The position numbers and the translations under genes were made by a program. Shown here in pieces: positions 6,661 to 61,985 of a DNA stretch of 64,000 bases (its first letter is position 1; each line of letters starts with the position of its first letter). Origin of the DNA: Thiohalophilus sp. (GTDB taxonomy: Bacteria > Pseudomonadota > Gammaproteobacteria > UBA6429 > Thiohalophilaceae); contig NZ_JAXHLN010000003.1 in NCBI RefSeq assembly GCF_034522235.1, forward strand, positions 310,001-374,000, written 5' to 3'. The notes beneath the pieces were generated by a model. It did no database searches and was not told where the DNA came from. It saw nothing but the letters and a program-made list of their open reading frames with translations.

Positions 6661-12625
<5,965 letters not shown>

Positions 12626-48653: not shown

Positions 48654-49979
48654 ATGTCGAAAAAAATTGATGCAAGTCCAACGAAAGATTTTTTTGTTCG
48701 TATGATCACAAGGGATATCACGCTAGAGGATTGTATATTAGATCTTCTGGATAATTGTATTGACGGTGCAGGGAAGGATCTAGAGCGAAAAGGTATCTCT
48801 CATAGTGAAGATAGCCTGTATGAAGGGTATCAGGCAAAAATAGTTGTCAAAGAAAATAGTTTCTTTATTGATGACAATTGCGGTGGTATTTCGTTAGATG
48901 AGGCTATTGATTATGCATTCCACTTTGGTAGGCGACCTGACGCGCCGAAAGACACTGAATTTGCTATTGGTCTTTATGGGATAGGAATGAAGCGAGCTAT
49001 TTTCAAGCTAGGGAATCTTATAAATATATCGTCATGTACAGATAATGAATGCTTCCAGGTAAATATCGATGTAAACCATTGGTTAGAACATCCTAAAGAT
49101 TGGGATTTTGACCTTGATGAGGTAGAAAATAAAGAGAGCCTGGGTACTTCAATTAAAGTGACGGAGTTGAAAGAAGCGGTGTCGAGAGAATTCTCAGATC
49201 AGGTTTTTAAGAATACACTTAAAAGGATTATTGCGCGAGATTATTCGTTTTTTATACAGAAAGGGTTTCTTGTATTGATGGACAATGAACCAATTGAGCC
49301 ATATAGGTTTATGTTGAGAGAAAGCGATGAATTCGAACCTATGCGACACACTTATATTGATGAGGAAGGTGTGGAGGTCGAAATCATAGCGGGAATGTCC
49401 GGTTTGCCCCCGGAAGACATTTCTCCCAGCCAGCAAGACGATAAAGTTGAATACTATGGATGGTTTGTTGCGTGTAATGATCGAATCGTTTTAGCAGGCG
49501 ATAAAACAAAGGCTACCGTTTGGGGAGATGAATTCCCAGTATGGCATACTCAATATAATGGGTTTATGGGTATAGTGAATTTCAAGTCATCCGACCCTAG
49601 TTTGTTACCGTGGACGACGACTAAGCGTGAAATCGATCTTCAGGACGCCATATATAAGCGAGCGCTTCATCATATGAAAAAAGTGACGCGAAACTACATT
49701 GACTATACAAACGAGAGAAAAGATAGCACGGATGAGGCACGAGCCTTAGAGGATAAAGCAAAGCCGAAGCCGATATTAGAGCTTAAAAATCGTGAATTGT
49801 TTAGGGTGCCATCGTTTTCGGGAAAATCAAAAGTTGACATGGCTAATATTCAGTATAGAGTCGAACGCGACCGAGCTCGTCAGGTCGGAGAGCAGCTTGG
49901 CAGCAAAGGTATGACTTTAACCCAAATTGGGATAAAAACATTTGAGTACTTCTATTCAAATGAAGTGGAGGATGAGTGA
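48654..49979 (+). CDS. MORC/MutL-like GHKL ATPase
   Basis: A 441-residue protein with an N-terminal Bergerat ATP fold. N-box DCILDLLDNCIDGAG (Asp33-Asn34), Mg/ATP-lid G1 box DDNCGGIS (74-80) and G2 box GLYGIGMKR (106-114). The spacing and LDN.IDGA form match MORC/MutL-type rather than kinase-type ATPases. The S5-like transducer region follows to about residue 330, then a C-terminal helical part with no known domain. Such ATPases are known from restriction-modification neighbourhoods. Its stop overlaps the next start (TGATG), and composition is AT-rich relative to flanks. I infer an ATP-dependent DNA clamp or sensor for defence. Confidence 0.85.
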   Translation: MSKKIDASPTKDFFVRMITRDITLEDCILDLLDNCIDGAGKDLERKGISHSEDSLYEGYQAKIVVKENSFFIDDNCGGISLDEAIDYAFHFGRRPDAPKDTEFAIGLYGIGMKRAIFKLGNLINISSCTDNECFQVNIDVNHWLEHPKDWDFDLDEVENKESLGTSIKVTELKEAVSREFSDQVFKNTLKRIIARDYSFFIQKGFLVLMDNEPIEPYRFMLRESDEFEPMRHTYIDEEGVEVEIIAGMSGLPPEDISPSQQDDKVEYYGWFVACNDRIVLAGDKTKATVWGDEFPVWHTQYNGFMGIVNFKSSDPSLLPWTTTKREIDLQDAIYKRALHHMKKVTRNYIDYTNERKDSTDEARALEDKAKPKPILELKNRELFRVPSFSGKSKVDMANIQYRVERDRARQVGEQLGSKGMTLTQIGIKTFEYFYSNEVEDE

Positions 49980-50938
49980 TGTCTTCCTCTGAAAAGGTAC
50001 ATTTCGTATTGAGGACTAATAAAAATATTGAACGCAAGCTTATAGTTGAGTGTTTGCGTACAATGCAGCCGCATTTTGATTTCTCGAAATACCGTTATAT
50101 TGGAATGGGATCATTTTGGTTCGCCGATTTTTTACTATTCCATAAATCGTTCTCTATTGTTGCAATGGATTCAATTGAGACCGCAGCCTTGGCAGAGCGG
50201 GCTAGTTTTAATAAGCCCTTAGCATGTATTGAGGTACATTCAGGGTTTACAACAAATATTTTGCCGACAATAGAGTTAGCTAGAGAGCCATGCATTATCT
50301 GGCTAGATTATGATTCAGACCTGACTGGACCTGTATTAGAAGATGTGCGTATTTCTGCAGGTGAGCTTAAACCTGGAAGTGTTTTTATTATCACATTGAA
50401 TGCACATATTGGGCAGCTAGGCCCATCTTCAATGGAAAATAGTAATGAAGGAAAAGTGGATGTTTTAAGCAGGCTCGCCCCGGACCTTGTTCCAAGTGAT
50501 ATCAATCCTGAGGTATTAACCCAAAAAGGATTTCAGAAAATTTTAGGTAAGATTGTATTTGCTCATCTAGCACATTGTGTGAAAAAAGCAGATCCAAGCA
50601 AAGATTTTATGCCAATGTTCAATTTTGCATATAAAGATGATACACCGATGGTTACTGTTGGGGGAATGATAGTAGACGAGCAACGTAAACTAGCTTTTGA
50701 TAAGTGTAATCTCAGCGCGTCATGTGAATATGCGACGGTAGAGACTCAATATCGAATAAATGTGCCACCATTGACAATGAAAGAAAAATTCGCGATTGAC
50801 CAACTCCTACCATCAGTAGGCGGTCCGAAAGAAGAAGAAGTGAAGAGACGCTATGGTTTCAGTATAAAGCAGTCCCAATTGCGCGATTATCAGCGTTTTT
50901 ACAGGTTTTATCCATTGTTTGGTGAAATGCAGAATTGA
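49979..50938 (+). CDS. Rossmann-fold, methyltransferase-like partner of the GHKL ATPase
   Basis: A 319-residue protein started at the ATG in the TGATG junction, with GGAGG upstream. The motif-I-like KYRYIGMGSFWFADFLLF (about 38-54) and an acidic MDSIE at the end of the next strand (about 63-67) suit a SAM-type Rossmann fold. CIIWLDYDSDLTG (about 105-117) sits at the motif IV position. No DPPY or PC motif is present, so it is not a standard DNA methyltransferase. It may be an O-methyltransferase-like or a pseudo-enzyme. The coupling with the ATPase suggests a two-protein unit. Confidence 0.6.
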   Translation: MSSSEKVHFVLRTNKNIERKLIVECLRTMQPHFDFSKYRYIGMGSFWFADFLLFHKSFSIVAMDSIETAALAERASFNKPLACIEVHSGFTTNILPTIELAREPCIIWLDYDSDLTGPVLEDVRISAGELKPGSVFIITLNAHIGQLGPSSMENSNEGKVDVLSRLAPDLVPSDINPEVLTQKGFQKILGKIVFAHLAHCVKKADPSKDFMPMFNFAYKDDTPMVTVGGMIVDEQRKLAFDKCNLSASCEYATVETQYRINVPPLTMKEKFAIDQLLPSVGGPKEEEVKRRYGFSIKQSQLRDYQRFYRFYPLFGEMQN

Positions 50939-51400: not shown

Positions 51401-51808
51401 ATGGTTGATACTCGATCAAAAGAACAACGATCACGAATTATGTCGAGTGTTCACGATAAGAACACAAGACCAGAAATGTATGTTCGGAGTATGCTCCATA
51501 GAATGGGCTACAGATTTAGATTACATAGAAAAGGTTTACCCGGCAGACCAGATATTGTTTTTCCTAGCAGACATAAGGTGATTTTCGTAAATGGATGTTT
51601 TTGGCACTCTCATAACTGCAAATATGATAAACCTCCTAAATCGAAGTTAGATTATTGGCTGCCGAAATTAGAAGCAACAAAGAAACGGGATAAAAAAAAC
51701 GTTGATGCTCTAAAAAAACTTGGATGGGAGGTGCTCACTGTATGGCAATGTGAGTTAAGGAATCCTAGCTTTCTTCAACAAAGACTTAAACGGTTTCTTA
51801 AAGATTAG
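51401..51808 (+). CDS. vsr: very short patch repair endonuclease Vsr
   Basis: Nicks 5' to the T of T:G mismatches that arise by deamination of 5-methylcytosine. The 135-residue protein keeps the key residues: catalytic Asp51 (GRPDIVF), His69 in FWHSHNC, and zinc ligands Cys66, His71, Cys73 and Cys117, with the same numbering as E. coli Vsr. N-terminal DTRSKEQRSRIMSSVHDKNTRPE is typical. It is directly upstream of the cytosine methyltransferase, the usual pairing, so it should protect methylated sites from mutation. Confidence 0.95.
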   Translation: MVDTRSKEQRSRIMSSVHDKNTRPEMYVRSMLHRMGYRFRLHRKGLPGRPDIVFPSRHKVIFVNGCFWHSHNCKYDKPPKSKLDYWLPKLEATKKRDKKNVDALKKLGWEVLTVWQCELRNPSFLQQRLKRFLKD

Positions 51809-51860: not shown

Positions 51861-53201
51861 ATGACTAGACCAATTGCGATAGATTTATTTAGTGGCGCAG
51901 GAGGAATGAGCCTCGGTTTCGAACAAGCTGGTTTTGATATTGCTGCTGCTGTAGATGTTGATCCTATACATGCATGTGTGCACAAATTTAATTTTCCAAC
52001 CTGCACTGTTATTCCTAAATCGGTATCAGAGCTGACAGGTTCTGATATTAGAAGAGCTGCTGGGATTGGCAATAAGCGAGTACATGTAGTTATTGGTGGG
52101 GCGCCTTGTCAAGGTTTTTCATTAATTGGTCAAAGGGCTTTGGATGACCCTCGCAATTCATTAGTACGAGATTTCGTCCGAGTTGTAAAAGAACTAAAAG
52201 CATCATATTTTGTCTTCGAGAATGTTAAGGGTCTTACGGTAGGTAAGCATCGTGTGCTTTTGGAAGAAATTATTGAAGAATTTAACTCAATAGGTTACCG
52301 CGTTCAAACGCCGTGGCAGGTGCTTCAAGCTGCACAATATGGTGTACCCCAAAATAGAGAAAGGCTTATACTGATAGGCGCTAAAAAGAATTATCGACTT
52401 CCAGAGTATCCTGTTCCGCGAACTCGATCAGCTGGAACAGATCCTATGCTATTGGACCTACCAGAAGGGCCTACTTGTCGCGATGCATTAGGCGACCTCC
52501 CTGAGCCAGAGCGTTTTAGTAAACTGGAACAATATGATTTTGTGAAAACGTCCCAATGGGGAAAACCAAGCAAATATGCTCACGAGCTTCGTTGCGTCGA
52601 CCGAGAGTCATGGCACTATAGTTTTCAGAGAAAATGGGATCCCATGATCCTAACTTCTAGTGCGAGAACGAATCATACAGAAATTTCTCGCAAACGTTTT
52701 GCAGAAACTGAAGAAGGTCAGGTAGAGCCAATCTCTCGATTTTATAAATTGCCTTCGGGTGGAATATCAAACACATTACGTGCTGGTACAGATTCTGCGC
52801 GCGGTGCATTTACTAGTCCACGTCCAATACATTACAAAACACCGCGGTGTATAACAGTTAGAGAAATGGCGCGATTACATGGGTTCCCTGATTGGTTCCG
52901 GTTCCATGTGACTAAATGGCATGGGGCGCGTCAAGTTGGTAATGCTGTGGCGCCCCCCTTGGCCAGAGCGCTGGGCGCAGAAATACTTAGAGCGTTGGAC
53001 GTGATACCGCAAAAACCACGCCAGAAAATTGAATTAGGCGATCCATTATTATTAGAAATGGATATGACTGAAGCAGCTGAATATTGGAATGTCCCGATTG
53101 CTATTGGCAAGCGGAACCGTAAAAGTGGAGCTAAAAAACGTAAACAGTCTGAGATTGAGCAGCTGCGCATAGCAGGGATAAGTGAGAATGCATATGGCTA
53201 A
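51861..53201 (+). CDS. DNA (cytosine-5-)-methyltransferase
   Basis: A 446-residue enzyme transferring methyl from SAM to cytosine C5. Motif I AIDLFSGAGGMSLGFEQAG (6-24), motif IV IGGAPCQGFS with nucleophile Cys83, motif VI FENVKGL (119-125), motif VIII QNRERLILIG (164-173), a variable target-recognition region (about 190-320), motif IX TPRCITVREMARLHGFP, and motif X RQVGNAVAPPLARALG. The recognition sequence cannot be read off. The last codons overlap the start of the next gene by 8 bases, so it is coupled to the candidate restriction enzyme. Confidence 0.95.
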   Translation: MTRPIAIDLFSGAGGMSLGFEQAGFDIAAAVDVDPIHACVHKFNFPTCTVIPKSVSELTGSDIRRAAGIGNKRVHVVIGGAPCQGFSLIGQRALDDPRNSLVRDFVRVVKELKASYFVFENVKGLTVGKHRVLLEEIIEEFNSIGYRVQTPWQVLQAAQYGVPQNRERLILIGAKKNYRLPEYPVPRTRSAGTDPMLLDLPEGPTCRDALGDLPEPERFSKLEQYDFVKTSQWGKPSKYAHELRCVDRESWHYSFQRKWDPMILTSSARTNHTEISRKRFAETEEGQVEPISRFYKLPSGGISNTLRAGTDSARGAFTSPRPIHYKTPRCITVREMARLHGFPDWFRFHVTKWHGARQVGNAVAPPLARALGAEILRALDVIPQKPRQKIELGDPLLLEMDMTEAAEYWNVPIAIGKRNRKSGAKKRKQSEIEQLRIAGISENAYG

Positions 53202-54003
53202 TAGTAGCTCCAGTAAAAGCCAAAGCCGTTACAAGGCGTTAATCGAAAAGATATTCTTTGACCACTACAAAGAGAACGATACTTTAATAGAATTTGAAAG
53301 GAATGAATTAGAAAGTGCGGCAAAATTACTTGAGATTACATTGCCAAAAAACCTAGGCGATGTGATTTATTCAATACGGTATCGAACTCCTATGCCGGAA
53401 TCAATATTATCCATTCAGCCAAAAGATATGGAATGGATAATCATAGGAGTAGGGCGTTCAAGATATGCATTTAAGCTAGTTCGGCTCAATAGAATAGCTC
53501 CTAATCCTGATTTGGCTGTAACTAAGATCCCTGATGCTACACCTGAAATAATATCTAATTACTCCTTGTCTGATGAGCAAGCTTTGCTCGCAAAGGTAAG
53601 GTACAACCGGTTGATAGACATATTCTTAGGTATATCTGTCTATTCTCTACAGAACCATCTTCGTACTACAGTTAAAGATATCGGTCAAATTGAGATCGAT
53701 GAAGTGTATGTTGGAATCGATAAGCAGGGTAATCATTATATTATACCTGTTCAGGCAAAAACTGGTAATGATCAATTGTCAGTTGTACAGACAAAACAGG
53801 ATGTTGATTGCTGTTCAGAGAAATTTCAAAATCTTATTTGTCGTGCAATATCAACTCAATTTATGGAAGATGACTTAATTGCAATATTCGAACTAACTGT
53901 GGAGGATGATGAGGTAAGAATCATTGAAGAGCGGCATTATAAACTTGTGCCTGCTAAAGAAATTACTTCACATGATTTGCAGAAATATAAATATCGCAAC
54001 TAG
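53194..54003 (+). CDS. candidate PD-(D/E)XK restriction endonuclease
   Basis: A 269-residue protein starting at MANSSSSKSQ; two earlier starts (53182 GTG, 53188 ATG) also exist. The region IEIDEVYVGIDKQGNHYIIPVQAK contains Asp169 and Q187-A-K189 in the pattern D-x(17)-(E/Q)xK of the PD-(D/E)XK fold. The N-terminal half is of unknown fold. It overlaps the methyltransferase by 8 bases (ATGGCTAA). I infer that this is the cognate type II restriction enzyme; no named family was recognised, so the call rests on position and the short motif. Confidence 0.6.
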   Translation: MANSSSSKSQSRYKALIEKIFFDHYKENDTLIEFERNELESAAKLLEITLPKNLGDVIYSIRYRTPMPESILSIQPKDMEWIIIGVGRSRYAFKLVRLNRIAPNPDLAVTKIPDATPEIISNYSLSDEQALLAKVRYNRLIDIFLGISVYSLQNHLRTTVKDIGQIEIDEVYVGIDKQGNHYIIPVQAKTGNDQLSVVQTKQDVDCCSEKFQNLICRAISTQFMEDDLIAIFELTVEDDEVRIIEERHYKLVPAKEITSHDLQKYKYRN

Positions 54004-54197: not shown

Positions 54198-55034
54198 ATG
54201 TCACATTGGACTCAGATTGAATGTGAGGCAATTGTCCGAGACTACTTCCAGATGCTGATGGAAGATATCTCCGGGAATGCATACTCTAAGGCCAAACACC
54301 GCAGAGCTTTACAGTCGAGCCAGGTGAAGCGTTCTGACGGCTCGATTGAATATAAGCATCAGAATATCAGTGCGATTCTACTCGAACTCGGTTATCCCTA
54401 TATCCCAGGCTACAAGCCAGCTTTTAATTATCAGAAAATTCTCAAAGATGCCGTCCAGGCGCACTTGAAGTCACAGCCAGGTGAAATAGAGGCCGAGGCA
54501 GTCGCACTGGCCGAGCAAGTTCCGGAGATATCCCATGCGGTCGATTGGGAGGCCGTACTTGATATCCCGCCGGATCGCCTCCCAAATTCGCCGGAAATAC
54601 AGACCAGTGAGTTCATGCCTCGGCATCTTAACTATGCCGAGCGAGAAGAGCGAAATCGGCAACTGGGCAAACTTGGCGAGGAATTCGTACTCGAATTCGA
54701 GAAATACCGGCTTGAGCAGGCAGGGCGATCAGATTTAGCCCGTGAAATTGAATGGACGAGCCAGAAACTGGGTGATGGTGCTGGCTATGATATACGGTCA
54801 TTTGATGCGCAGCGTGAGGAAGAGTTGTTCATAGAGGTTAAAACAACGAATTCCGGCAAATACCAGCCATTCATGATCAGCGACAATGAAGTCGCATTTT
54901 CCGTATCAACCAAGGACAAGTACGCACTATATAGGGTTTTTGATTTTCGGCATAAAGCAAGGATATTTACCTTGGAGGGAAATATCCAGGAGCTTGTTAA
55001 TTTGCAGCCTAAGTTATATAGAGCCACATTTTAA
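54198..55034 (+). CDS. DUF3883 (PD-(D/E)XK-like) domain protein
   Basis: A 278-residue protein. The N-terminal half (EAIVRDYFQMLMEDISGNAYSKAKHRRAL) resembles regions of HNH/DUF3883 defence proteins. The C-terminal DUF3883 domain starts near GKLGEEFVLEFEKYRLEQAG and carries GAGYDIRSFDAQREEELFIEVKTT, where Asp198 and E213-V-K215 make a PD-(D/E)XK active site. It has a separate 194-bp upstream gap and higher GC than its neighbours. A second, truncated copy of its 3' part lies at 61551-61876. It probably adds a nuclease to the island. Confidence 0.85.
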   Translation: MSHWTQIECEAIVRDYFQMLMEDISGNAYSKAKHRRALQSSQVKRSDGSIEYKHQNISAILLELGYPYIPGYKPAFNYQKILKDAVQAHLKSQPGEIEAEAVALAEQVPEISHAVDWEAVLDIPPDRLPNSPEIQTSEFMPRHLNYAEREERNRQLGKLGEEFVLEFEKYRLEQAGRSDLAREIEWTSQKLGDGAGYDIRSFDAQREEELFIEVKTTNSGKYQPFMISDNEVAFSVSTKDKYALYRVFDFRHKARIFTLEGNIQELVNLQPKLYRATF

Positions 55035-55137
55035 TGCCATGCAGTAATAGAAAAAAGAGATAAAAGTATAATTAATCTCAATATTATAGACTTCTGTTCT
55101 GCTAGACCAATTTTTTATTTTTCCACCAGGAAATTAC

Positions 55138-55854
55138 ATGTCGCATTCCAAAGCTATAAAAACAATTAAGATACTCTCTTCCATTGGTGAGGATTCGCCT
55201 AAGAGTCTCTACGCTGAGCGTCTTAGAAGGAATGTACGTGGAGTGAAGCGGCGGAAATCGATTGACCATACCTGGAATGGTCTCCTGCTTAGTATTTTAA
55301 CCTCCCAGCAGCGTTCGACTGGTAGATCTAATCGTGTTCGAGAACTCCTGGATTCAGGATGGTTGAGATGGGAAATTGCCATCAACGACCCTGCATCCAT
55401 CACTCGCACAGTGAAAGGGTTTAATTACAATGAGCGCAAAAAATCCTACCTACGCACCGCAAGGAGATGGCTTCTTAAGAATGTTGAAGAGCTTGACGAA
55501 TATAAGCGGGCTCTAAGGCGAATTCCAGTCCACAATATTCAAGAGCGATACGCTGCCGAGGTAGACGCAGCGGATTTCCTGCGCAAAGGAGTCGATGGGA
55601 TTGGGCCTAAACAATCCAGAAACTTCTGGCAGTATCTTGGCTACAGTGTTTGGACAATTCCTTTCGATTCACGCATTCGCACAATTTTAGAGTCTCCCCC
55701 CTTCTCTATGGATCCAGGTCTCACATATCTCAAGTCTGAGGAATATGTTATTGCTTTATGTAAAGCTGCAGAAACTTTCCCATGTTTACTTGACGCTTCG
55801 CTGTTCGACCTAGAGGGCCTGATGCGTACCTATGTGGGATTGCCTCGATATTAG
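55138..55854 (+). CDS. HhH-GPD family DNA glycosylase
   Basis: A 238-residue protein of the endonuclease III/Ogg fold. Helical core with LLLSILTSQQRSTGRS, the helix-hairpin-helix GVDGIGPKQSRNF (151-163), and VWTIPFDSRI with Asp177 at the catalytic Asp position. Lys158 stands where the lyase Lys120 of EndoIII is, with 19 residues to the Asp (18 in EndoIII), so a bifunctional glycosylase/AP lyase is predicted. The C-terminal 4Fe-4S cysteine loop of EndoIII is absent. The base removed is unknown. Its place at the end of a methyltransferase/nuclease island suggests action on modified or deaminated DNA. Confidence 0.8.
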   Translation: MSHSKAIKTIKILSSIGEDSPKSLYAERLRRNVRGVKRRKSIDHTWNGLLLSILTSQQRSTGRSNRVRELLDSGWLRWEIAINDPASITRTVKGFNYNERKKSYLRTARRWLLKNVEELDEYKRALRRIPVHNIQERYAAEVDAADFLRKGVDGIGPKQSRNFWQYLGYSVWTIPFDSRIRTILESPPFSMDPGLTYLKSEEYVIALCKAAETFPCLLDASLFDLEGLMRTYVGLPRY

Positions 55855-56182
55855 GAATAAAATTGACGTTGACAGATGCCCATCATAAATAAAAGATGTC
55901 GGTGACAAACAATACAGATTCGTATAAGTTGCTAGCGTGCTTTAACGCGCGACAGAATTATTTCTGATATTAGAGTCCCTTTGTTGTCAGGCACTATTTC
56001 CTTTTGAACCCCCGCGTTGCTGTAGTGTCTTATTCACAATGTATAGGTTGAGCGAGGGTCGGACCACCGCAAACCATTGAAACACAATGATAAAGGGGCA
56101 AAATTCAGGCCTGATCGGGGCTTAGAAGGCCATTTTCAGGGATGAAATGTTCGCTTTAAGGAGGAAGCATTCTGCCATGCCT
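55855..56182. other. 328-bp non-coding stretch with one copy of a 59-bp direct repeat
   Basis: 55981-56039 is the first copy of the repeat that recurs at 61927-61985. 56127-56144 carries AAGGCCATTTTCAGGG, repeated with one change at 60019-60034. No gene was recognised. Confidence 0.7.
55981..56039. repeat. 59-bp direct repeat, copy 1
   Basis: Starts TTGTTGTCAGGCACTATTTC and ends GTGTCTTATTCACAA. It differs from the copy at 61927 at about four positions. Each copy lies behind a DUF3883 gene or fragment. Confidence 0.9.
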
Positions 56183-56764
56183 TTAGGCAGGGAAGTGGGC
56201 GATGTCTCGTTGTTCCAATGCCAGGTGTCCCAGCATCCCCAGCCAGAAATCCCGAAACACCTCGATGGGTTTGAAGTAGTCTTTGTCGCCCTTGCATTTG
56301 CGCAACCACTCATTCATCTGCACCCCAAAGCCAAAGGCATCTTCGGGTGATTCGGGCAGGTGACCAATCCGCCCGGCCATGTCTTTCAGGTGCCAGGCGA
56401 CATCGTTGATGTGGGCCTGCACGCTGCGGTCGCTGCCGGTCTGGAAATGCTGTTCCGCCGAGAGCATATCGATCAAGGCCACGAGTTTTTCTGATCCGTG
56501 TTCGTCAAGCTGGCAGAGCGAGACGGCCTCTCGCCACAGGCGGTCGGCAAAGATTTCGGGAAACTGGCTGAATTCGTTTTTGGTCAGGCCGCAAAACACC
56601 ATGCTATAGCGGCTTTGCCACTCCATGGCGATGATGCATTTGCGCCGCAGCACCGTCACCCGATGGGCGTACCACTGCATGGCGCTCGCGTTGACCGCTT
56701 GCGCCTGGCTCAGATGCATGGCCAGGTCCTTGCTGAGTGTTTTGGAGAGATGAAACTGGATCAT
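56183..56764 (-). CDS. DUF6933-like protein
   Basis: A 193-residue soluble protein. It begins MIQFHLSKTLSKDLAMHLSQ and contains CIIAMEWQSRYSMVFCGLTKNEFSQFPEIFADRLWREAVSL, which resembles DUF6933 proteins, though I cannot check this. Length and composition are those of a real gene: GC-rich with no stop on this strand. It is antisense to the broken HigB frame and its start lies at the point where HigB homology begins, so an old rearrangement joined the two. Function unknown. Confidence 0.6.
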   Translation of the reverse strand: MIQFHLSKTLSKDLAMHLSQAQAVNASAMQWYAHRVTVLRRKCIIAMEWQSRYSMVFCGLTKNEFSQFPEIFADRLWREAVSLCQLDEHGSEKLVALIDMLSAEQHFQTGSDRSVQAHINDVAWHLKDMAGRIGHLPESPEDAFGFGVQMNEWLRKCKGDKDYFKPIEVFRDFWLGMLGHLALEQRDIAHFPA

Positions 56765-61550: not shown

Positions 61551-61876
61551 GACTCGAACAGGCAGGGCGATCGGATTTGGCCCGTGAAATTGAATGGACA
61601 AGCCAGAAACTGGGTGATGGTGCTGGCTATGATATACGGTCATTTGATGCGCAGCATGAGGAAGAGTTGTTCATCGAGGTTAAAACAACTGATTCCAGCA
61701 AATACCAGCCATTTATGATCAGCGACAATGAAGTCACCTTTTCTGAAATAACCAGGGACAAGTACGCACTATATAGGGTTTTTGATTTCCGACATAAAGC
61801 GAGATTATTTGCCTTGGAGGGAAACATCCATGACCATGTTAATTTGCAGCCTGAATTGTATAGAGCGAGCTTTTAA
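61551..61876 (+). pseudogene. truncated second copy of the DUF3883 gene
   Basis: Matches residues ~174-278 of the protein at 54198 with few changes (QAGRSDLAREIEWTSQKLGD shared exactly), keeps the D...EVK active site and the stop, but lacks the first 170 codons. The frame upstream is unrelated. Nucleotide identity is high, so duplication or recombination is recent. Confidence 0.88.
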
Positions 61877-61926
61877 TTAAGTCGTGTTAGCTAATTAAGC
61901 AACCGTCCTCTTTAAGTTATAATCCC

Positions 61927-61985
61927 TTGTTGTTTGGCACTATTTCCTTCTGAACCCCTGCGTTGCTGTAGTGTCTTATTCACAA
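61927..61985. repeat. 59-bp direct repeat, copy 2
   Basis: Begins TTGTTGTTTGGCACTATTTC and ends GTGTCTTATTCACAA; the other copy is at 55981-56039. It lies 50 bp after the DUF3883 fragment and 55 bp before the selO start. Confidence 0.9.

Follow-up and report, generated by a model that had tools for sequence, protein, structure and literature searches.

The window, that is, the whole 64,000-nt stretch of Thiohalophilus DNA analysed here, contains an island of low G+C content (0.36-0.47 from 48.6 to 55.9 kb, as compared with about 0.57-0.61 over most of the window), in agreement with the island-borne setting proposed for the gene of interest in an earlier note on the sequence. The annotated features are given in Table 1. 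The gene of interest is an open reading frame of 238 aa with an ATG at 55138 and a stop codon ending at 55854. It is a real gene and its product is an HhH-GPD DNA glycosylase. Behind this gene and the DUF6933 gene follow istA/istB-like genes, named by inspection.

Table 1 Features of the island and its surroundings in window coordinates
Feature	Position	Strand	Basis or remark
GHKL-type ATPase (PF13589)	48654..49979	+	Pfam
Methyltransf_35 (PF20553) protein	49976..50938	+	Pfam
Vsr mismatch endonuclease	51401..51808	+	profile scans
C5-cytosine DNA methyltransferase (PF00145, PADLOC PDLC03326)	51861..53201	+	Pfam, PADLOC
Type II restriction endonuclease (PADLOC REase_II PDLC03404)	53182..54003	+	PADLOC
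NOV_C (PF13020) protein, PADLOC candidate PDC-S36, 104 bp upstream of the glycosylase	54198..55034	+	Pfam, PADLOC
3' part of the NOV_C gene, copy 1 of a 325-bp direct repeat, left flank	54711..55035	+	89.5% identical to 61553-61877
934-bp segment holding the glycosylase gene	55036..55969		the second copy of the flanks has 39 bp instead (61878-61916)
HhH-GPD (Ogg2-like) DNA glycosylase / AP-lyase, 238 aa	55138..55854	+	predicted: K158 and D177 catalytic, D219/F223 base pocket, C-terminal Tyr238
70-bp repeat, copy 1, right flank	55970..56039	+	90% identical to 61917-61985
DUF6933 protein, PADLOC candidate PDC-S63, downstream neighbour of the glycosylase	56183..56764	-	Pfam, PADLOC
Truncated second copy of the NOV_C 3' end	61553..61877	+	repeat comparison
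70-bp repeat, second copy	61917..61985	+	repeat comparison

The surroundings of the gene have the form of an imperfect segmental duplication (54711-56039 and 61553-61985), composed of the NOV_C 3' end and the 70-bp repeat, that encloses the glycosylase gene in one copy only. A genome search located just two copies of the 70-bp repeat. In a congeneric genome, an intact NOV_C gene is followed by other genes and the glycosylase is absent. It is likewise absent from another genome of the class (L139:4415-5751), where Vsr is encoded directly before NOV_C (PDC-S36). Because the segment is missing from the local duplicate and Vsr and NOV_C occur elsewhere without the glycosylase, the gene forms a separable part of the island, and its nearness to Vsr and the methyltransferase is no evidence of a shared job. 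Vsr and NOV_C may themselves be the real functional pair of the island. NOV_C was also considered as an obligate partner of the glycosylase and rejected: PDC-S36 is matched in 23 of 274 class genomes and the glycosylase is found at none of seven NOV_C loci from other genomes. The only recurrent link is seen at locus L011, where a NOV_C homologue is divergently adjacent to a glycosylase that is among the closest to that of the window (29% identity). At best, the two genes are loosely associated.

The AlphaFold2 model of the window protein is all-alpha (pLDDT 84, pTM 0.83). Its first matches in the PDB are structures of Ogg2 (3knt, 3fhf and 3n0u; probability 1.00), followed by EndoIII, OGG1 and MutY; for 3knt, the E-value is 2.7e-4 and the TM score 0.60/0.68. 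A better model was obtained for the core family member L010 (pLDDT 93, pTM 0.90), for which the top seven PDB matches are all Ogg2 (TM by target 0.76-0.82). Among the matches of this L010 model (9893-10660) is also a weak one to DUF2419, a human enzyme of queuosine salvage (7ugk, E 0.065). A comparison with the viral structure library gave no significant match. At the sequence level, Ogg2 of M. jannaschii ranks first in the comparison with the PDB, with the hairpin Lys aligned, and a profile of 54 family members retrieves Ogg2-type entries at the top with weak E-values (0.015-0.03). Throughout the Ogg2 comparisons, the Lys and Asp of the family coincide with the catalytic Lys and Asp of Ogg2.

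None of the curated Pfam and NCBIfam cut-offs is reached by the window protein, the best weak matches being Ogg-HhH (PF22175, 15.9 of 27 bits) and the Ogg2-type equivalog PRK01229 (17.9 of 183 bits). PADLOC models match neither the window protein nor the family members at L006 and L007. The general family of EndoIII and MutY (PF00730) gave no match for the protein in a Pfam scan of the window and picks two other genes in the same genome, so the glycosylase is an extra, accessory enzyme. Since the protein has only two cysteines, C208 and C216, a four-Cys iron-sulfur site is impossible; this pair (window 55759-55785) is kept in 56/59 family members, too few cysteines for an Fe-S cluster. The call of an HhH-GPD glycosylase without such a cluster, made in the earlier note from the sequence, is upheld by the model, the PDB matches and the match to the family profile described below, and the structural comparison that it asked for favours Ogg2, not Nth/MutY. 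Its statement that the protein is not close to Nth, MutY, AlkA or Ogg stands insofar as no housekeeping family of the PF00730 type is involved, but it overlooked the closeness to Ogg2, though the 8-oxoguanine sensor of that family is missing.

The family was gathered by tblastn against plasmids, which yielded distant relatives on haloarchaeal, Bradyrhizobium and Polaromonas plasmids. An alignment of these together with two members from viral contigs led to 61 loci in a species-representative genome collection, spanning many bacterial phyla and archaea. The result is a sparse, unnamed family from about 60 genomes. Core members share about 30-50% identity with L010, and the window protein shares 22-30% with the other members, except for the Polaromonas member (16%); no relative of the window protein above 30% was found. 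A profile built from 53 relatives, with the window protein left out, matches its residues 17-224 (106 bits, E=1e-28 with the search space set to 1e6) and does not match the ORFs of the loci that hold the genome's own PF00730 enzymes. Judged by this profile, the window protein is a true, though divergent, member of the family.

The distribution of the family is sparse and mobile. Members are found in 1/369 genomes of the window's class and in 1/398 genomes of a phylum sample, in both cases the window's own genome. There are four clear members in 292 haloarchaeal genomes and three in 298 genomes of the class of L046. Near-identical copies are present in different hosts, namely L058 (Lautropia) and L070 (an actinomycete MAG), as well as L006 and L036. 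These copies would fit horizontal spread; L070 may be MAG contamination. On an IMG/VR contig (L160:6615-8660), a member is encoded directly behind two serine recombinase-like genes and overlaps the second, which looks like a mobile capture. Patterns of the window protein scanned singly over viral contigs and GTDB genomes revealed no relatives, phage records gave no match, and a scan of viral contigs with the N-terminal part only added no new members. A haloarchaeal protein with the motifs IGPKYARN...AIDSR (L101, G780:C1:1182968-1183432) matches the family profile weakly and is possibly from a sister family.

In the window protein, Lys158 is located within the hairpin (VDGIGPK158QSRN) and Asp177 within IPFD177SR. 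Invariant among 61 aligned members are G156, K158, Q159, R161 and N162, and D177 and R179 are kept in 60/60. The K158 motif belonged to the search pattern for most members, which makes its invariance there circular, whereas D177 lies outside that pattern. Conservation of K158 in the pattern-selected set alone was therefore rejected as evidence and replaced by relatives found without the pattern, namely L004, L005 and L009 (tblastn) and L098, L099, L100 and L103 (profile search of whole genomes). Both Lys and Asp are kept in 7/7 of these. Lys158 and Asp177 had been proposed earlier as the pair of a bifunctional glycosylase/AP lyase; they fall on the catalytic pair of Ogg2 and are conserved among the homologues, and the prediction of lyase chemistry from sequence and model is retained.

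The putative base pocket is similarly conserved, with D219 in 58/60 and F223 in 59/59 members. Asp194 and Trp198 are described as pocket residues of Ogg2 (review PMC3397491). D219 aligns with Asp194 by profile alignment to SsOgg, and F223, by its four-residue spacing to the Asp, would be the counterpart of Trp198. A difference is found at the chain end. In Ogg2, 8-oxoguanine is told from guanine by the carboxylate of the C-terminal Lys, a strictly conserved residue, and truncation at this residue abolishes 8-oxoG cleavage while AP-lyase activity remains (PMC3397491). The C-terminal residue of the present family is F, W or Y in 43/57 members and K in a single one (1/57); the window protein ends with Tyr. 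Mainly because the C-terminal Lys is missing, 8-oxoguanine is doubtful as the substrate. The preference for an aromatic residue suggests that the chain end may still take part in base recognition.

The genomic company of the family consists to a large extent of defence genes. Among 20 large genes scanned near members, 13 match PADLOC models at E<=1e-10, namely PglZ, BrxHII, HmaA, HmaC, DUF499, HsdR, a PD-T4-6-type kinase, PDC-S02 (twice), SNF2-type helicases (twice), and Orf5/HEC-06 and OLD-like genes around L059. At the same threshold, 117 neighbour proteins (within two genes of a member, 150-560 aa) gave 123 matches and 117 size-matched control proteins, drawn from remote regions of 20 of these genomes, gave 8, a large contrast in which matched PADLOC models, not proteins, are counted. 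BREX genes are represented by the orders PglZ-BrxL-HEAT protein-HhH in L007 and HhH-PglZ-BrxL in L010 and by BrxHII near the L068 member. HmaC/DUF499/HmaA genes occur together with DUF1156 in L041, L058 and L070 (order DUF1156-HmaC-HhH in L041). HsdR, of type I restriction, is encoded near the L029 member, the PD-T4-6-type kinase near L034 and the OLD-like genes near L059.

In two Bacteroidales MAGs (L042 and L048), the glycosylase gene is directly followed by a McrB-like gene (AAA_5 in L048) and McrC. This three-gene operon (L042:664-5252 and L048:3-4995) is possibly a glycosylase-assisted type IV (McrBC, modification-dependent) restriction system. In L023 (9968-12179), the genes after that of the glycosylase encode Nmad2 (nucleotide modification associated domain 2) and a NucS-like nuclease (NucS_C/DUF7669). 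Further associations recur on a smaller scale. A DUF6884 protein, weakly YaaA-like, adjoins the glycosylase in L025 (9911-12856), L028 and L019 (9356-10717), loci from Chloroflexota and from one Methanosarcinales MAG; L025 also encodes a CoiA-like protein. A DUF6946 gene begins 7 bp after the glycosylase in L058 (9374-11113), and this pair is found again in L066 (Nevskiales).

An all-against-all clustering of the loci revealed no conserved operon partner common to more than five of them. As no partner gene is conserved family-wide, the defence role is deduced from the company alone. The neighbours at L044, L047, L050 and L062 are ordinary metabolic genes, and a PglZ search in 25 host genomes placed it adjacent to the glycosylase only in L010, and elsewhere far away or on other contigs. 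The role in phage defence that the earlier note had considered plausible for this one gene gains from the company that the family as a whole keeps with defence genes.

With somewhat better than even confidence, the gene product is read as an accessory DNA glycosylase/AP-lyase that acts on a modified base and serves to defend the cell against foreign DNA. Fold, catalytic pair, family membership, loss of the Ogg2 sensor, sparse mobile distribution and defence-gene company are results of the computation; what we infer is an active enzyme that excises a modified base and guards against phage. The HhH hairpin would grip the DNA backbone and the modified base would flip into the pocket beside D219 and F223. 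K158, activated by D177, would attack C1' and the base would be released; beta-elimination would then break the strand. In an incoming genome full of modified bases, dense abasic sites and nicks would be ruinous, while unmodified host DNA would be spared. The substrate may, as a guess from the kept Ogg2 pocket Asp, be a guanine-type or hypermodified base. The pocket Asp is a weak hint at a guanine-type base, and the McrBC and Nmad2 neighbours are a similarly weak hint at modified DNA.

Ogg2 (MjOgg 3knt/3fhf, TmOgg 3n0u, SsOgg 3fhg; PF22175; PRK01229) is the nearest known relative, and the family might accordingly be read as a mobile Ogg2, an ordinary 8-oxoguanine repair enzyme carried in islands by chance. 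Both share the all-alpha HhH-GPD fold without an OGG1 N-terminal domain or an Fe-S cluster, the hairpin Lys, the Asp at the GPD position and a pocket Asp with an aromatic residue four positions later. The closest fold, the closest profiles, the conserved catalytic pair and the positions of D219 and F223 all speak for this reading. However, the C-terminal Lys, which Ogg2 needs for 8-oxoguanine excision (PMC3397491) and which acts as its 8-oxoG sensor, is absent and usually replaced by the aromatic residue. The family also has DSR where Ogg2 has DRH after the catalytic Asp, a loop longer by one residue and only about 15% identity to Ogg2. The Pfam and NCBIfam scores are far below the cut-offs, and the defence-gene company and sparse distribution are unlike those of housekeeping repair. 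An ordinary repair function is therefore unlikely.

Marginally less likely still is a guardian of the adjoining restriction-modification system that removes T (or U) from mismatches after deamination of 5mC. The model for such an enzyme is MIG of Methanobacterium thermoformicicum, a T:G mismatch glycosylase of the HhH type encoded beside the GGCC methyltransferase of a 5mC restriction-modification system. MIG is a 4Fe-4S enzyme of the Nth/MutY type. A 5mC methyltransferase lies within 2 kb of the window gene and Vsr in the same island, and from these the earlier note had suggested an action on modified or deaminated bases. This link was rejected. A homologue of the methyltransferase recurs at one family locus only and Vsr at none, the glycosylase gene is located on its own segment, and T:G mismatches are already covered there by Vsr. 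Unlike MIG, the window protein has two cysteines only, and it has no Nth/MIG-type sequence similarity. With Endonuclease III and MutY (PF00730) it shares the HhH-GPD superfamily and, in the case of EndoIII, the Lys/Asp positions.

Slightly more improbable again is a restriction glycosylase that would recognise a sequence in unmodified foreign DNA and cut there, while a host methylase protects self-DNA (the principle of R.PabI, which has another fold). Methyltransferases are encoded near several members (DUF1156 in L041, L058 and L070; a C5 methyltransferase in the window and L053), but none is consistently adjacent, many members stand alone, and the HhH fold contacts the DNA backbone with no preference for sequence (PMC3397491). 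Equally improbable is a decaying or repurposed copy, i.e. a defence family of which the divergent window member is inactive: the very long branch in the tree (length 6.9), the lack of any relative above 30% identity and the changes at several near-invariant core positions (such as R103 to Ser, W122 to Tyr and W183 to Ile) are consistent with it and weaken inference from the core to the window protein, but the ORF is full-length and K158, D177, D219, F223 and the C-terminal aromatic residue are all retained.

An accessory defence glycosylase acting on a modified base remains the preferred reading, and its closest functional parallels are the Brig enzymes. Brig1 is described as a primarily monofunctional member of the uracil-DNA-glycosylase superfamily and is often found near BREX/Pgl genes (PMC11078745); its homologue Brig3 has a mixed beta-sheet core and excises 5hmC (PMC13160076). 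Brig1-3 and the present family are both accessory glycosylases in defence islands, and the proposed principle, excision of modified bases from phage DNA, is the same. The fold of Brig1-3 is of the uracil-DNA-glycosylase type, whereas that of the family is all-alpha HhH-GPD with a lyase Lys. The comparison with Brig1 drawn in the earlier note is useful as an analogy and does not extend to the unrelated fold. A full-text search of the open literature, with closed-access work outside its scope, returned no report of HhH-GPD or Ogg2 glycosylases in defence settings. With no PADLOC model and with scores under the cut-offs of Pfam and NCBIfam, the family would escape defence surveys.

Tentatively, and with a little less than even confidence, we propose a previously unnamed family of Ogg2-derived HhH-GPD glycosylase/AP-lyases that supplements BREX, Hma, McrBC and restriction systems and destroys modified phage DNA. 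Glycosylase immunity would then have a second fold of independent origin, one able to nick the strand itself. Immunity to phages through glycosylases was discovered only recently, and both Brig1 and Brig3 represent one uracil-glycosylase-like lineage. If an HhH-GPD family with a lyase Lys also defends, prokaryotes have drawn base excision into defence more than once, from repair enzymes. The family could lead to modified bases in phages that are attacked by none of the known systems, and it could supply new reagents for cutting DNA where bases are modified.
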